A stretch of DNA of 17,190 bases from JBFMHD01 sp040752395 [NCBI: Candidatus Hydrogenedentota bacterium] (GTDB taxonomy: Bacteria > JBFMHD01). A program made the position numbers and the translations under genes. The stretch lies in NCBI GenBank assembly GCA_040752395.1, contig JBFMHD010000031.1, positions 1 through 17,190 on the forward strand. Reading direction: 5' to 3'. The notes below the pieces were generated by a model. That model was not told the DNA's origin. It saw only the letters and a program-made list of their open reading frames with translations, and searched no databases. Positions 8,669 through 17,021 of this stretch are shown here, piece by piece. Numbering within the stretch: position 1 is the first letter of the stretch; the number at the start of each line of letters is the position of its first letter.

Positions 8669-8721
8669 AAACTATGTGTTTTATTTAAAGATATAAAGTT
8701 TCTATGACGAAAATTACTATT

Positions 8722-8725
8722 AGGA
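8722..8725 (+). promoter_or_regulatory. Shine-Dalgarno AGGA supporting the ATG start at 8731
   Basis: AGGA lies 5 bases before ATG 8731. The in-frame upstream ATG at 8704 has no Shine-Dalgarno-like sequence. Starting at 8731 also gives a compact signal peptide. Confidence 0.5.
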
Positions 8726-8730
8726 TTAGT

Positions 8731-10107
8731 ATGTTAACTTATAGAAGTATATATAGTATAATATTATTTCTGGTAGTTACAATATTCAACTTACAAGCCA
8801 CAGGTTTATTTGCTGATGACAAAGGTACGACATCAGCACAGTTTTTAAAAATAGGTGTTGGCGCGAGACCTGGTGCGCTTGCGAATGCTTATTCTTCAAT
8901 CGGCGAGGATGTTATAAGTATTTTTTATAATCCTGGTGGCCTTGCATTTACTGAAAAAGCTGAGATATCAGCTATGCATAACGAATATTTCCAGGATATA
9001 AATTTTGATTTTATTGGGCTATCTTTTCCAGTAGGCAAGCGTCATACTTTAGGCACCGGTCTACAACTTTTAAAAACCACAGATACAGAGCGAAGCGAAT
9101 ATTTAGGGATCGTATTATCCGAGTTCGATATTGAGGATATTGCAGCTACATTCTCCTATGCATATTTATTAAATGAAAGATTAGGCCTCGGCATAAACGG
9201 CAAATATATCAGAGAGGTTTTATTTCATCATTCAGCAAGCACTTTAGCAGCTGATGTCGGTGTCCTTTTTAAGACGCCGTTTAGAGGGTTAAATCTTGGA
9301 TTAAGTATTCAGCATCTTGGCGGTAAGCTAAAATTTATTCAGGTTAGTGATCCATTACCTGCAAATATAAGATTCGGGATATCTTATAAAATTTTTAAAG
9401 ACCAGGCACTCATAACAGTTGATACGTTTAAATATAGAAATGAAGACCCTGATGGGTGTATCGGATTTGAGTGGAATTTTAAAAATCTGTTACAATTAAG
9501 AGCAGGCTACAGATTTACATCTGATTTAGAACCTTCAGATGCTATAACCGCAGGACTTGGAATAAGTTATAAAGATTTGTCATTTGATTATGCTTATGTG
9601 CCTTATGGCGAGTTGGGTAATACTCATCGGTTCAGCGGTAATTTTAAATTCTGGAAGACTGAGCGAGATATAACACCGAAACCGCCACCAGCAACTTATA
9701 TTACTCTACCAAAAAAAGAAGTAAAGGTTGTGCCTAAAAAGCTTGGGAAAGCAGCTATCTTTAAATTGACCCCGGTCGAGGAATTATATCGATCAGAACT
9801 TATTGAAGAAGAGATAAAAGAGGGTTTGAAAGTGATTTTACAAGAAGGCGGTGTTTTTACTGTTTTGTCTGATGAAGAAATGAGAGTTAAAATGGCCTTG
9901 GCACCTGAATCACTTAACCTTGAGAACGCTTGCAGACTATTTGGAACTGATTATGTTATTTTTGGTGGTTATAGTATGGATGAAGATAAAATAAATATCA
10001 ATATTAGTTCTGTTGATTCGTTAGGAAAGATAAAATCAATTCAAATTAAAACTGAGATAAAAAATATTATCCGTGAAATCAGAAAATCTATTGATAAAAT
10101 ATTATGA
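8731..10107 (+). CDS. PorV/UPF0164-like outer-membrane barrel fused to a CsgG/LpoB-like domain
   Basis: The product has 458 residues from ATG 8731 (AGGA 5 bases upstream); ATG 8704 would add nine residues. Residues 1-27 are a signal peptide (core IILFLVVTIFNL, then GLFA before DDKG). Residues about 32-308 match the PorV/PorQ-UPF0164 family: the opening GTTSAQFLKIGVGARPGALA, then IFYNPGGLAF near residue 67, alternating beta strands, and a last strand NFKFW. PorV proteins are FadL-fold barrels that receive type IX secretion cargo at the outer membrane. A Pro/Lys-rich linker (about 311-336) leads to a roughly 120-residue periplasmic-type domain (340-458). Its segment ACRLFGTDYVIFGGY (400-414), followed by strands and a D-x-x-G-K turn, resembles the core of CsgG/LpoB-like lipoprotein domains. 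Ordinary PorV ends at the barrel, so this fusion is unusual. The flanking genes encode giant proteins with sorting domains, suggesting it serves their export or anchoring. The barrel family is fairly sure; the C-terminal assignment is tentative. Confidence 0.75.
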   Translation: MLTYRSIYSIILFLVVTIFNLQATGLFADDKGTTSAQFLKIGVGARPGALANAYSSIGEDVISIFYNPGGLAFTEKAEISAMHNEYFQDINFDFIGLSFPVGKRHTLGTGLQLLKTTDTERSEYLGIVLSEFDIEDIAATFSYAYLLNERLGLGINGKYIREVLFHHSASTLAADVGVLFKTPFRGLNLGLSIQHLGGKLKFIQVSDPLPANIRFGISYKIFKDQALITVDTFKYRNEDPDGCIGFEWNFKNLLQLRAGYRFTSDLEPSDAITAGLGISYKDLSFDYAYVPYGELGNTHRFSGNFKFWKTERDITPKPPPATYITLPKKEVKVVPKKLGKAAIFKLTPVEELYRSELIEEEIKEGLKVILQEGGVFTVLSDEEMRVKMALAPESLNLENACRLFGTDYVIFGGYSMDEDKININISSVDSLGKIKSIQIKTEIKNIIREIRKSIDKIL

Positions 10108-10220: not shown

Positions 10221-13200
10221 ATGGTATTCGTTTTTTCTATGGTAAAGAGGTTTATATTAGCAACTCTACTTATATATTTTTTTATTTTATCCCAGGCTTC
10301 TTATGGTGATACATATATTTTTGTAAGAAAATGGGGTAGCTCAGGTACCGGGGATGGACAATTTGATAGACCGAGCGGCATCGGCATGGATAAATACGGC
10401 CATGTGTATATATCAGAGTACAGTAACTCTCATCGTTGTCAGAAATTTACAAAGAATGGTAATTTTATATTAAAATGGGGGAGTTTAGGTGCTGGTAACG
10501 GCCAGTTTAATTATGCCAGTGGTGTGGTCGTGGATTCAGCAGGCTATATTCATGTAGTAGATAGAGTTAATGAACGTGTTCAAAAATTTACGCAAGATGG
10601 CAGCTTTGTTACTATATGGGGTAGTGGAAATCTGGATCTTCTGTTTGATCACTATGCAGGTATTGCAATAGATTCTTCTTCTAATATTTATGTTTGCAGG
10701 ACAGATGGGAGTAGTATAAGTAGCGTGAGAAAATTTAATTCAAGTGGTGGTTATATCTTAGATATTGGCAGCAGGGGTACTGCATTTGGTAAATTTCAAG
10801 ATCCTCATGGTGTAGCAGTTGATGATACAGGTTATGTTTATGTTTCAGACCGAAAAAGTGGTGGTAGTATCAGATTACAGAAATTTACAGTCGGAGGTTC
10901 CACGATTATGGCAATTGATACTGGTGGACTTAATGATCCTACGGGTGTTGCGGTAGATAAATATGGTTATGTATATGTTTGTGATAAAGATAACCACCGC
11001 ATTAAGAAATATGATTCTAATGGTAATATTATAACAGTTTGGGGTAGTAATGGTGCGGCTGATGGCCAGTTCTCTTCTCCTGAAGGCATCTTTGTGGATT
11101 CTTTTGGGTTTGTATATGTTTGCGATGGTGGGAATAGCAGGATACAGGTCTTTGCATTAACTGATGCTGATAGTATCCCCTGCTCAGCACCAGGCAGCGT
11201 TATAGTTTCCAACCCTGGTTATGGGGGACAATTAAATTTATCCTGGTCCAACCCACCCCAACCAGATTTTTCCTATGTAATGATTTATCGCTCTACCGCT
11301 TCATTATCTCTCGGCTCACTTATTTATTCTAATGTAACAGAAACGTCAAAAATAGATACAGGACTTACAAATGGTGAGACATATTATTATACTTTCTTTG
11401 CTGTTGATACCAATGGTAACTGGTCAATTGATACTACGCAATATAGTGGGACCCCCTATGATACTATAACACCAACCGAAGTCACATTATTAACACCGGC
11501 TGACGGAACCCCAACCTCAACAGTTAGACCTGTGTTCACTTATACTAATTCGTTAGATTCGTCAAACATTGAGTACATTTTAGAGATAGATGATACATAT
11601 AGTTTTAGTTCGATTAACTATACAGGTACATCATTGACATTAAGTTGTAGTCCGAGCGTAGATATACTAAACGGCACATATTACTGGCGAGTAAGAGTAA
11701 AGGATATTTATAATAATTCAAATCAAGGTATAGATTCACGAATGATAGTAATAGATACCGCGGCTCCAAATGAGGTAAGTTTAATTTCGCCGGTCGATGG
11801 TACGTGTACGAATGTAGTAAAGCCAGTGTTTTATTATACTGCATCAGGTGATACGAGCGGTATAAAGTGGTATATATTAGAGATAGATGACACGAGTACT
11901 TTCAGTTCAATAAACTACAGTGGTACGTCAGTGAGTACGAGTTGCAGTCCGAGTGCGGATATGGTAAATGGTACGTATTATTGGCGAGTGCGGGTGCTGG
12001 ATATTCTTGATCAATCGAATGCTGGTATAGATACGAATGTAATAGTGATAGACACAGCTGGCCCGAATGAGGTGAGTTTAATAAGTCCGGCAGATGGTAG
12101 TAGTACGAATGTAGTAAGACCAGTGTTTTATTATACTGCATCAGGTGATACATCGGGCATAAAATGGTATATATTAGAAATAGATGATACTTATTCTTTT
12201 ACTTCGATAAACTATAGTGGGACATCTACCACTACAAGTTGTTCGCCAACTGCTGATATGGCAGACAATACATATTACTGGCGAGTGCGGGTGCTGGATA
12301 TTCTTGATCAATCGAATGTTGGGATAGATACAAGGGTTATAAGGATAGTAGCTGAGACAGTACCGCCTACTGAGGTAAGTTTAATTTCACCGGTTGATGG
12401 AGCATGTACGAATGTAGTACAGCCGGTATTTTGGTATAGTGCATCGAGTGATAGTTCAGGTATAAAGTGGTATATTTTAGAGATAGACGACACGAGTAGT
12501 TTCAGTTCAATAAACTACAGTGGTACGTCAGTGAGTACGAGTTGCAGTCCGAGTGCGGAGATGGTAAATGGTACGTATTATTGGCGTGTGCGGGTGATAG
12601 ACGTATGGGATATATCGAATACCGGGATAGATAGCAGGGTAATAGTGATAGACACAGCTGGCCCGAATGAGGTGAGTTTAATAAGTCCGGCAGATGGTAG
12701 TAGTACGAATGTAGTAAAGCCAGTGTTTTATTATACTGCATCAGGTGATACGAGTGGCATAAAGTGGTATATCTTAGAGATAGATGACACGAGTAGTTTT
12801 GCTTCGATAAACTACAGTGGTACATCAGTGAGTACGAGTTGCAGTCCGAGTGCGGATATGGTAAATGGTACGTATTACTGGCGAGTGCGGGTGCTGGATA
12901 TACTTGATCAATCGAATGCTGGTATAGATACGAGAGTAATAATAATAGATACTTATATCTCTGTTAGTTTAGTTTCACCAGAGGACACATATTATACGAA
13001 TGACACCACGCCGAGGTTTGTATGGTCAGGTAGCAGTGTAGATACCTATACGTTAGAGGTAGATAATGATATAAGTTTCACATCAATTAATTATACGGTT
13101 ACGACTGGTGATACAGAGGCGAGTGCTGATGTATTAGGAGAGGACACATATTACTGGCGTGTGATAGGTTTTGATAAAGGTGGGAACTGGGAGACGACAG

Positions 13201-16200
13201 TAGCGAGGGTGATAGTGATAGATACTGGGTTACCGGCAGAGGTTAGTCTTATAGCGCCTGAAAATAATACAGAGACAAACGAACAGAGGCCGAGGCTTGT
13301 ATGGGGTAGTTCGAGTGATAGTCGTAGTGGTGTATGGTATTATCAGATAGAGCTTGATAATAGCAGTAATTTTTTATCGATAGAGTATAGTGATACGAGT
13401 GATTCTTGTGAGTGGGAGAGTGATGTAGATATAGCTGGTGATACATATTACTGGCGGGTGAGGGTATATGATGTAGCTGGTAATAGTAATAGTGGGATAG
13501 ATAGCAGGGTAATAAAGATAGTTGCGGACACGTTAGCGCCTGATGAAGTAAGTTTAATAAGTCCGGCAGATGGCAGTAGTACGAATGTAGTACAGCCGGT
13601 ATTTTGGTATAGTGCATCGAGTGATAGTTCAGGTATAAAGTGGTATATTTTAGAGATAGATGACACGAGTAGTTTTGCTTCGATAAACTACAGTGGTACG
13701 TCAGTGAGTACGAGTTGCAGTCCGAGTGCGGAGATGGTAAATGGTACGTATTATTGGCGTGTGCGGGTGATAGACGTATGGGATATATCGAATACCGGGA
13801 TAGATAGCAGGGTAATAGTGATAGACACAGCTGGCCCGAATGAGGTGAGTTTAATAAGTCCGGCAGATGGTAGTAGTACGAATGTAGTAAAGCCAGTGTT
13901 TTATTATACTGCATCAGGTGATACGAGTGGCATAAAGTGGTATATCTTAGAGATAGATGACACGAGTAGTTTTGCTTCGATAAACTACAGTGGTACATCA
14001 GTGAGTACGAGTTGCAGTCCGAGTGCGGATATGGTAAATGGTACGTATTACTGGCGAGTGCGGGTGCTGGATATACTTGATCAATCGAATGCTGGTATAG
14101 ATACGAGAGTAATAATAATAGATACTTATATCTCTGTTAGTTTAGTTTCACCAGAGGACACATATTATACGAATGACACCACGCCGAGGTTTGTATGGTC
14201 AGGTAGCAGTGTAGATACCTATACGTTAGAGGTAGATAATGATATAAGTTTCACATCAATTAATTATACGGTTACGACTGGTGATACAGAGGCGAGTGCT
14301 GATGTATTAGGAGAGGACACATATTACTGGCGTGTGATAGGTTTTGATAAAGGTGGGAACTGGGAGACGACAGTAGCGAGGGTGATAGTGATAGATACTG
14401 GGTTACCGGCAGAGGTTAGTCTTATAGCGCCTGAAAATAATACAGAGACAAACGAACAGAGGCCGAGGCTTGTATGGGGTAGTTCGAGTGATAGTCGTAG
14501 TGGTGTATGGTATTATCAGATAGAGCTTGATAATAGCAGTAATTTTTTATCGATAGAGTATAGTGATACGAGTGATTCTTGTGAGTGGGAGAGTGATGTA
14601 GATATAGCTGGTGATACATATTACTGGCGGGTGAGGGTATATGATGTAGCTGGTAATAGTAATAGTGGGATAGATAGCAGGGTAATAAAGATAGTTGCGG
14701 ACACGTTAGCGCCTGATGAAGTAAGTTTAATAAGTCCGGCAGATGGCAGTAGTACGAATGTAGTACAGCCGGTATTTTGGTATAGTGCATCGAGTGATAG
14801 TTCAGGTATAAAGTGGTATATTTTAGAGATAGATGACACGAGTAGTTTTGCTTCAATAAACTACAGTGGTACATCAGTGAGTACGAGTTGCAGTCCGAGT
14901 GCGGAGATGGTAAATGGTACGTATTATTGGCGTGTGCGGGTGTTAGATATCTGGGACCAGTCCAATCTCGGGTTGGATTCGAATGTATTAATAATAGATA
15001 CAGTGCCACCTGTTGTTTATCTGAATTCTATTGTGATAAACAATGATGCATTGGTTACTAATGCTGAAACAGTGACTTTAAGTTTGCTATATGATAACAG
15101 TTCTATAGAGATGCAGATTTCTGATACTGAGACGTTTGCAGGAGCGAGCTTTGAGCCGGTTAGTTTGACTGATACTTATGTCTTGACCTCAATTGAGGGA
15201 ACAAAGGCGCTGTGGGTAAGGTTTAAAGATGCTGCAGGCAATATCTCAAATTCGGATTCTGATACAATTGTGCTTGATAAAACTCCACCCGCTGGTTCGG
15301 TTATATTAGACAATGGTGCAGCGATTACAACGAGCCAGGTGGTAATAGCATCTATAACAGTAACAGAGACATACCAGATGATAGTTTCAACAGACGGTGT
15401 CTTTGATAATGAAGAGTGGGAATCAAAATCAGATACTAAAGTTATTAATTATGGTGATACAGACGGAGTGAAATGGGTTTATGTAAGGTTCAGGGATTTA
15501 GCAGGGAATGCGAGTGACACGTGTTCGGATAGTATAACTCTTGCCGTGCCGCCATTACCCGTTGTTAATCTTTCAGGTACGTTACTTGATGGGGCAAAGG
15601 TTAGACTTGATTGGTTAAAATCAGCGTCAAATGATGTTGTAAAATATTATATCTATTCTGATAGCACACAAGGAATAATAAATTGGAGTATACCTATTGA
15701 TACAGTATCTGCACCAACAGTAACCTGGACAAGTGATACGCTGTTAGCTGATACGTATTATCTATTAGGGGTACGAGCTGTAGATAATAATGGATATACT
15801 GATGAAGAATATAATGCAGTAAGAGTAATGCCGAGAACATCAATAGATACTAATAAACCACAAACAGCTATAAAAAAGGCAAAAGTATATAGTGGTATAT
15901 ATGCGAATATTATAGCAGAGGTTGTTGTAAGTTCTGTTAATAATATCAGCAAAGTATTATTTCAGTACAGCGTGGATACAGGTGCTACGTGGGTGGATAT
16001 GCTGCAATATAATGCTACTAATTATCCTAATCCTGTTTTTAATTGTTTTGATCTGGCAAAATACAATACTTTATGGGATATAAGTGGTTTGGCTCAGGGA
16101 GAATATCTTATCCGTGCAGTGGCTTATAATTTAAATAATGTTCCTGATACATACGCACCTGGTATCTGGGTAGAGATAGGTGGCGACAATAGTTCGAGTA

Positions 16201-17021
16201 ATCCACGGGATTGGCCTGATGAGATGGGTGATACTACAACAGAGGGTATAAGGTCAAGGGTTAAATGTTATACTACTATAAGTAATACCTTAGAGTTAGC
16301 AGTTCCGAATCGTCAGAGCTCAATTGACCAGTTAAACATAGCAAATGGACTTCTGAATAATGAGATAGACCAGCTCGAGATAATATTTGTAGATTCGTCG
16401 TATTATGATACCTGGATTAGAGCAGCTCAGTTTGTGTATGCTAATGAAATAAGAAAAATAGAGTTACGCAGTGGCCAGACACAATTTACTGCGGGTAATG
16501 TAGAATTTAATATTTCTTATCAGGATCAAGATCTGGATGGTATTGTAGATGGAACGACTTTAAGAGAGGATGATTTAAAAATTTATCGGCTAAGTAATAC
16601 TGATAGCAAATGGTATGAGATATCAAGTCAGGTAGATAAAACTAATAAACGAGTGAATGGGTTAACAAGTCAGTTTAGTGTGTTTGCAGTTGGTGCTATA
16701 CCTGTAGCGAGTAATCTTGCTAATGTTATAGTATATCCGAATCCATTCAGGCCGAATGATGGGAACTGGCAGACAGGGGTTGATTATAATGGTTCTGCGG
16801 GCAGCGGGATATATATAACAAACCTTATGGCAAGTACTGAGGTTGAGGTTTATAATGTATCGGGCCAGAAAGTCTACGATTTTGTTACCTCTGCGAATAC
16901 CGGAACAGTGCAGTGGGATGCAAAGGATAAGAACGGTCGGTATCTGCCAAGCGGTGTGTATATAATGTTATTAAAGAAAGGCGGAGATAGAAAGATAGTT
17001 AAGTTTGCGATAATTAGATGA
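10221..17021 (+). CDS. Giant surface protein: six-bladed NHL propeller, 12 Ig/FN3-like modules, T9SS-type sorting domain
   Basis: The product has 2266 residues. The signal peptide ends near residue 29 (core FILATLLIYFFILSQASYG). Residues 34-311 hold six NHL repeats (pattern KWGSxGxGxGQFxxPxGVxVD, YVYVxD, RIQKF), enough for a complete six-bladed beta-propeller. An FN3 domain spans about 320-415. Twelve modules of about 92-102 residues start near 418, 516, 615, 716, 815, 912, 1005, 1107, 1206, 1303, 1396 and 1498, with signature EVSLISPADG, YILEIDDTxSFxSINY, GTYYWRVRV and a closing VIVIDT. Modules 8-11 largely copy 4-7 through a 1173-bp tandem duplication. Two more Ig-like domains (1596-1775), an FN3 (1777-1873), a mixed region, and a module with the loop D2102-x-D2104-x-D2106-G-x-x-D2110 follow. 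The sorting domain is 2172-2266 (YPNPFRP, VEVYNVSGQKVY, WDAKDKNGRYLPSGVYIMLL). Modules often carry one or two Cys (SCSPS, DGxCTN). Role inferred: long extracellular stalk presenting a propeller for binding; no enzyme motif is visible. Confidence 0.85.
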   Translation: MVFVFSMVKRFILATLLIYFFILSQASYGDTYIFVRKWGSSGTGDGQFDRPSGIGMDKYGHVYISEYSNSHRCQKFTKNGNFILKWGSLGAGNGQFNYASGVVVDSAGYIHVVDRVNERVQKFTQDGSFVTIWGSGNLDLLFDHYAGIAIDSSSNIYVCRTDGSSISSVRKFNSSGGYILDIGSRGTAFGKFQDPHGVAVDDTGYVYVSDRKSGGSIRLQKFTVGGSTIMAIDTGGLNDPTGVAVDKYGYVYVCDKDNHRIKKYDSNGNIITVWGSNGAADGQFSSPEGIFVDSFGFVYVCDGGNSRIQVFALTDADSIPCSAPGSVIVSNPGYGGQLNLSWSNPPQPDFSYVMIYRSTASLSLGSLIYSNVTETSKIDTGLTNGETYYYTFFAVDTNGNWSIDTTQYSGTPYDTITPTEVTLLTPADGTPTSTVRPVFTYTNSLDSSNIEYILEIDDTYSFSSINYTGTSLTLSCSPSVDILNGTYYWRVRVKDIYNNSNQGIDSRMIVIDTAAPNEVSLISPVDGTCTNVVKPVFYYTASGDTSGIKWYILEIDDTSTFSSINYSGTSVSTSCSPSADMVNGTYYWRVRVLDILDQSNAGIDTNVIVIDTAGPNEVSLISPADGSSTNVVRPVFYYTASGDTSGIKWYILEIDDTYSFTSINYSGTSTTTSCSPTADMADNTYYWRVRVLDILDQSNVGIDTRVIRIVAETVPPTEVSLISPVDGACTNVVQPVFWYSASSDSSGIKWYILEIDDTSSFSSINYSGTSVSTSCSPSAEMVNGTYYWRVRVIDVWDISNTGIDSRVIVIDTAGPNEVSLISPADGSSTNVVKPVFYYTASGDTSGIKWYILEIDDTSSFASINYSGTSVSTSCSPSADMVNGTYYWRVRVLDILDQSNAGIDTRVIIIDTYISVSLVSPEDTYYTNDTTPRFVWSGSSVDTYTLEVDNDISFTSINYTVTTGDTEASADVLGEDTYYWRVIGFDKGGNWETTVARVIVIDTGLPAEVSLIAPENNTETNEQRPRLVWGSSSDSRSGVWYYQIELDNSSNFLSIEYSDTSDSCEWESDVDIAGDTYYWRVRVYDVAGNSNSGIDSRVIKIVADTLAPDEVSLISPADGSSTNVVQPVFWYSASSDSSGIKWYILEIDDTSSFASINYSGTSVSTSCSPSAEMVNGTYYWRVRVIDVWDISNTGIDSRVIVIDTAGPNEVSLISPADGSSTNVVKPVFYYTASGDTSGIKWYILEIDDTSSFASINYSGTSVSTSCSPSADMVNGTYYWRVRVLDILDQSNAGIDTRVIIIDTYISVSLVSPEDTYYTNDTTPRFVWSGSSVDTYTLEVDNDISFTSINYTVTTGDTEASADVLGEDTYYWRVIGFDKGGNWETTVARVIVIDTGLPAEVSLIAPENNTETNEQRPRLVWGSSSDSRSGVWYYQIELDNSSNFLSIEYSDTSDSCEWESDVDIAGDTYYWRVRVYDVAGNSNSGIDSRVIKIVADTLAPDEVSLISPADGSSTNVVQPVFWYSASSDSSGIKWYILEIDDTSSFASINYSGTSVSTSCSPSAEMVNGTYYWRVRVLDIWDQSNLGLDSNVLIIDTVPPVVYLNSIVINNDALVTNAETVTLSLLYDNSSIEMQISDTETFAGASFEPVSLTDTYVLTSIEGTKALWVRFKDAAGNISNSDSDTIVLDKTPPAGSVILDNGAAITTSQVVIASITVTETYQMIVSTDGVFDNEEWESKSDTKVINYGDTDGVKWVYVRFRDLAGNASDTCSDSITLAVPPLPVVNLSGTLLDGAKVRLDWLKSASNDVVKYYIYSDSTQGIINWSIPIDTVSAPTVTWTSDTLLADTYYLLGVRAVDNNGYTDEEYNAVRVMPRTSIDTNKPQTAIKKAKVYSGIYANIIAEVVVSSVNNISKVLFQYSVDTGATWVDMLQYNATNYPNPVFNCFDLAKYNTLWDISGLAQGEYLIRAVAYNLNNVPDTYAPGIWVEIGGDNSSSNPRDWPDEMGDTTTEGIRSRVKCYTTISNTLELAVPNRQSSIDQLNIANGLLNNEIDQLEIIFVDSSYYDTWIRAAQFVYANEIRKIELRSGQTQFTAGNVEFNISYQDQDLDGIVDGTTLREDDLKIYRLSNTDSKWYEISSQVDKTNKRVNGLTSQFSVFAVGAIPVASNLANVIVYPNPFRPNDGNWQTGVDYNGSAGSGIYITNLMASTEVEVYNVSGQKVYDFVTSANTGTVQWDAKDKNGRYLPSGVYIMLLKKGGDRKIVKFAIIR
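12510..13681 (+). repeat. 1173-bp tandem duplication, copy 1
   Basis: Comparing the sequence with itself at an offset of 1173 bases, I see no difference from 12510 to 13681 (1172 bases). This covers the second half of module 4, modules 5-7 and the first half of module 8. 1173 is 391 codons, so the frame is kept. Homology continues upstream to 12407 with five differences (12488, 12503, 12504, 12505, 12509). Confidence 0.9.
13683..14854 (+). repeat. 1173-bp tandem duplication, copy 2
   Basis: This is the second copy of 12510-13681. The first difference downstream is at 14855 (A, against G at 13682). Similarity then continues to about 14942 before module 12 diverges. Lack of synonymous change implies very recent duplication, probably by unequal recombination between modules 4 and 8, or gene conversion. 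Confidence 0.9.

Follow-up and report, generated by a model that had tools for sequence, protein, structure and literature searches.

A probable recent unequal crossover duplicated four modules in the gene of a predicted NHL-headed surface protein

In-frame tandem duplication is already a known route by which modular surface-protein genes change in length. Periscope Proteins are rod-forming proteins made of highly similar tandem domains, whose repeat tracts lengthen and shorten across a population, and near-identical DNA repeats favour intragenic recombination, as described in the available parts of two papers (PMC8201768, PMC9704523), the first of which also states that arrays of similar domains pose a misfolding problem (PMC8201768). 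For yrIlm of Yersinia ruckeri, the accessible text of PMC6868369 reports that short-read assemblies underestimate the number of identical Ig-like repeats 4- to 5-fold. The locus described here lies in a 17,190-nt window (the whole stretch of DNA that was analysed, without any N) and contains an exact tandem duplication inside a modular gene. We consider it probable that this duplication arose by a recent unequal crossover between module M4 and a downstream homologue, which would have duplicated a four-module stalk block of a predicted exported surface protein.

The product of the host gene is predicted to be a long exported surface protein that carries an NHL propeller on an Ig/FN3-like stalk and ends in a T9SS-type sorting tail (Table 1). 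Three NHL stretches pass the PF01436 cut-off individually, and besides the type A sorting domain, CHU_C also scored above its cut-off (29.3 bits vs 27). When the modules were scanned singly, 5 of 9 rows matched Big_13 at E <= 0.1, and M5 alone scored 14.0, under the gathering cut-off. A model of M5 (nine module rows) had a pLDDT of 65.5, and among its best Foldseek matches fibronectin type III domains predominated (lowest E 3.8e-3, with no match at E <= 0.001); a four-module model from a single sequence had a pLDDT of 37 and was too poor for use. The module profile had no sequence relatives in the PDB at E <= 0.1. The array may form a rod-like stalk. Two NCBIfam families were also considered, ScyF-type NHL (159.9 bits vs a cut-off of 350) and MakCD (74.6 bits vs 110), and membership was assigned to neither.

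Table 1. Positions of the genes, domains, modules and repeat units discussed in the text, numbered from the first base of the window.
Feature	Position	Strand	Remarks
Second giant gene, 2341 aa	1573..8598	+	Contains a diverged super-repeat (481-486 aa)
Gene for PorV/PorQ-family protein, directly upstream of host gene	8704..10107	+	NF033709, 194.4 bits, cut-off 90
Host gene, 2266 aa	10221..17021	+	N-terminus signal-peptide-like (by eye), NHL propeller, Ig/FN3-like modules, C-terminal sorting tail
NHL-type beta-propeller, N-terminal head	10311..11165	+	Six repeats by eye, approximate limits; PF01436, 90.8 bits, cut-off 20
Array of 12 modules, M1-M12	11457..14993	+	92-101 aa each; Big_13 (PF19077), 81.6 bits on whole protein, gathering cut-off 27
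Module M4	12345..12647	+	One inferred crossover partner
Tandem unit, copy 1	12510..13682	+	1173 bp, 391 codons
Module M8	13518..13820	+	Hybrid junction: left part as M12, right part as M4
Inferred crossover interval	13679..13699	+	Apart from G13682, 21 bp common to M4 and M12; reduced to 17 bp (13683-13699) should G be the older state
Tandem unit, copy 2	13683..14855	+	Last base alone departs from copy 1 (A for G, synonymous)
Module M12	14691..14993	+	Other inferred crossover partner
T9SS type A sorting domain (aa 2194-2262)	16800..17006	+	TIGR04183, 29.2 bits, cut-off 23

The first-pass annotation had claimed an exact in-frame tandem duplication of four modules, with its edges inside the homologous modules 4, 8 and 12 and with sibling modules that differ at many sites, and our results bore out each of these points. 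Positions 12510-13681 and 13683-14854 were equal at 1172 of 1172 sites, and the offset of 1173 bp, which leaves the reading frame of the host gene intact, was the sole one to exceed 50% identity when offsets of 100-1599 were scanned within 10501-15500. The pairs M5/M9, M6/M10 and M7/M11 are identical, whereas the ten possible pairings of M2, M3, M4, M5 and M12 show 31-90 differences in 297-303 sites. Pairs with M8 were excluded from this range, as this module is composed of M4 and M12, from which it differs at 25/303 and 23/303 sites, respectively. Set against such divergence among other similar modules, 0 mismatches in 1172 rule out chance identity of the two units. Pairs with M1 diverge more (106-115 of 294 sites), and identity to M5 is 79% for M4, 47% for M7 and 41% for M6.

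We also looked for exact direct repeats in 39 comparison loci, comprising 3 from the scan with the PorV-family protein, 16 from the phylum searches described below and 20 further stretches, the last a non-random set picked for the length of their frames or the quality of their matches. With 20-base seeds, no exact direct repeat in these loci exceeded 117 bp, and 0 of 39 came near 1 kb; short-read MAG assemblies are biased against long exact repeats. The 117-bp run belongs to locus L037, at a contig end in another genome, where 1-410 and 2440-2849 form an in-frame repeat at an offset of 2439 bp, with exact runs of 117, 88, 44 and 43 bp.

The edges of the duplicated block point to the way in which it was formed. 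Alignment at the junction showed M8 to be identical to M12 in its left part and to M4 in its right part, and a stretch-by-stretch comparison of the modules agreed. M4 and M12 have 191 bp in common (12406-12596) with 5 mismatches, and two exact shared runs of 82 bp and 69 bp flank the 21-bp run to which the switch in M8 maps. When G13682 is set aside, the identity at offset 1173 runs from 12506 to 13699, i.e., 1194 bp, or one unit plus 21 bp. Such a footprint, in which one unit is extended by the bases common to both partners where they exchange, is what a single unequal crossover between M4 and a downstream homologue predicts, and it argues for one. In the proposed mechanism, M4 would have aligned with the present M12, a near-copy that then lay four modules downstream of it; through an unequal crossover within the 21-bp identical stretch, the four-module block would have been duplicated in frame, with the hybrid M8 left at the joint. 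The event itself would have taken place in the cell. The perfect 1.2-kb repeat may now be open to loss or amplification by the same route, and each added unit would lengthen the stalk by four domains, or by some 15 nm if extended, as a rough estimate.

Several observations speak against this explanation. None of the 39 comparison loci has such a repeat, although MAG assemblies are biased against them. The exchange would have fallen in a 21-bp run despite the longer identical runs on either side, and the sole mismatch between the copies lies within the interval of the crossover, which would be coincidental for a later mutation with no link to the event. Bases 12509, 13682 and 14855 are A, G and A, each at the third position of a Ser codon, and within the switch region G13682 is the sole position at which M8 agrees with neither M4 nor M12. 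M8 is the same as M5 throughout 13650-13699, and M12 is the same as M5 over 14823-14905 save at position 14855. G13682 may be the older state and A14855 a later change, or a heteroduplex patch may have been involved; under either reading there is one difference between the copies.

The 390 unit codons contain 249.7 synonymous sites with no change, giving a Ks of at most ~0.012 at 95%, or a bound of 0.019 if the edge base is counted as one change. At E. coli mutation rates, this still permits up to tens of millions of generations. The term 'very recent' is to be taken as a Ks of at most ~0.012, and the identity does not in itself imply variation within the population. The first-pass annotation went on to suggest that gene length may differ from cell to cell and so change the reach of the propeller; by analogy, this is plausible.

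Among the rival explanations, the one that survives best is that the duplication is real but neutral, unconnected with any adjustable stalk length. We regard this as a serious possibility, though somewhat short of an even chance; it is compatible with the crossover, and its odds overlap with those of our preferred explanation. Zero synonymous changes would fit a young event on which selection has yet to act. On the other hand, the duplication is in frame and joins homologous points of like modules, so that modules stay whole, although homology alone would give this result, and a diverged block repeat is present in the neighbouring giant gene.

It is unlikely that the duplication is an artefact of assembly, in which the genome would hold one unit and the assembler would have circled a loop in the graph that joins M4 to the last module. 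Exact repeats of kilobase size are well known to trouble assemblers, and repeat counts from short-read assemblies can be wrong, as the accessible text on yrIlm shows (PMC6868369). We compared the k-mers of the window with those of a single-unit version of the sequence and found that none was missing from the latter at k=15, 17 or 18, one was missing at k=19 (13682-13700), 3 at k=21, 13 at k=31 and 55 at k=55. This junction 19-mer occurs nowhere else in the window. Moreover, a loop would be expected to switch within the 82- or 69-bp runs, whereas in M8 the M12-specific bases continue beyond the 82-bp run and M4-like sequence is present ahead of the 69-bp run. Because the single-unit version lacks the junction k-mers at any k of 19 or above and the switch lies outside the longest shared runs, a simple loop artefact is improbable. 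A search of viral contigs with the junction 30-mer gave 0 matches. Nonetheless, 1172 identical bases are more than a short-read assembly can bridge; the true count of units could therefore differ from two, and could be higher.

The remaining alternative is an old duplication held identical by gene conversion between the copies. In its favour, some modules share exact runs longer than those in shuffled sequences (M3/M5, 70 bp, 0/2000; M2/M4, 60 bp, 2/2000; M2/M8, 50 bp, 0/2000), but other pairs do not go beyond the shuffles (M3/M4, 823/2000; M2/M5, 107/2000), and such runs could equally arise from uneven constraint, which the shuffle test cannot separate from conversion. We consider this alternative unlikely, because the block of identity comprises one unit and the 21 bp in common, and its two edges fall at equivalent places of homologous modules, a pattern not expected from piecemeal conversion. 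Thus, of the two routes named by the first-pass annotation, recent unequal crossover is well supported by the hybrid M8 and the footprint of the block, and homogenising conversion has become the less likely.

The genes upstream of the duplicated one were also analyzed. In the second giant protein, aa 413-538, 526-699 and 701-829 match segments 481, 483 and 486 residues further on, at 54%, 59% and 48% identity, respectively. The scan covered offsets of 60-1199 and was run without a shuffle control, and its top-scoring offset, 194, was longer but just 30% identical. This super-repeat is probably an older block duplication. The PorV-family protein extends ~150 aa beyond its PorV_fam match (aa 42-316 of 467), and no Pfam match at E <= 0.01 was found there. 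Upstream of both giant genes, 424-1554 encodes a 376-aa protein with an F5/8 type C domain.

In searches for relatives, the PorV-family protein recovered 3 distant loci from the genome collection, one in Eisenbacteria (33% identity) and two in Calditrichota (32% and 27%). Two phylum searches with the giant host protein, in which 8 or 9 candidates were scored per genome, gave matches in 47/47 and 40/40 genomes. All of the matches listed were local, covering the NHL part, some modules, other Ig/FN3-like parts or the tail. The top match listed was 46% identical over aa 34-312 (the NHL part) and came from the 47-genome search; the best of those listed from the 40-genome search was 36% identical over aa 48-213. 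No whole-length match was present among those listed from the 47 + 40 genomes, and no orthologue was found in them. The module profile was run on the 47-genome set only and matched 7 of the 47 at E <= 1e-6. The giant protein had no relative in IMG/VR.

The locus can be placed beside three known systems. Like the Periscope Proteins SasG, Rib, Sgo_0707 and CdrA, as far as the available parts of the sources describe them, it encodes a predicted single-chain surface protein in which an array of beta-sandwich-type modules links a head at the N-terminus to a sorting signal at the C-terminus, and its tandem repeats are near-identical in DNA (1172/1172 here), though here there are only two units. A figure legend in the accessible part of the review lists BIg_13 (PF19077) among Periscope stalk folds (PMC8201768, PMC9704523), and Big_13-type modules occur here too. 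Unlike Periscope Proteins as described there, the step here is a four-module block with some dissimilar modules rather than one domain, and the predicted export route is T9SS-like rather than by sortase or autotransporter. By analogy, the array would be a Periscope-type stalk on paper; membership of that group would turn on repeat-number variation between strains, and we do not file the gene as a member. As described in the accessible parts of PMC6868369 and PMC10174560, yrIlm likewise has an array of Ig-like modules with DNA-identical repeats; it differs in its repeat, a single domain of ~300 bp present in ~20 or more copies that are identical or nearly so, and in being an inverse autotransporter, usually with a lectin-type domain as its cap. 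Finally, the product resembles T9SS cargo with a type A sorting domain, as TIGR04183 scores above its curated cut-off and a PorV-family gene adjoins; with this tail and neighbour, T9SS-type export would be predicted, and the protein may be attached to the surface.

The main text of PMC9210967 mentions neither NHL nor Big_13, and in the open-access literature, which lacks most subscription papers, we found no paper that mentions both Periscope Proteins and type IX secretion. It is possible, though doubtful, that the gene encodes a length-variable 'periscope' surface protein on T9SS-type export, with steps of a four-module block rather than of single domains. Since, within the block, M6 and M7 resemble M5 much less than M4 does, block-wise steps could alter length yet keep some adjacent domains dissimilar, and, if true, this would ease the misfolding problem stated for arrays of similar domains in the accessible part of PMC8201768. 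The locus offers a clean snapshot of a probable unequal crossover within a gene for a modular surface protein, and the point of exchange can be placed to within ~20 bp. Should the number of units prove variable in the population, length variation of the Periscope type would be extended to T9SS-type cargo; otherwise, the locus would serve as a well-behaved example of how modular arrays grow.
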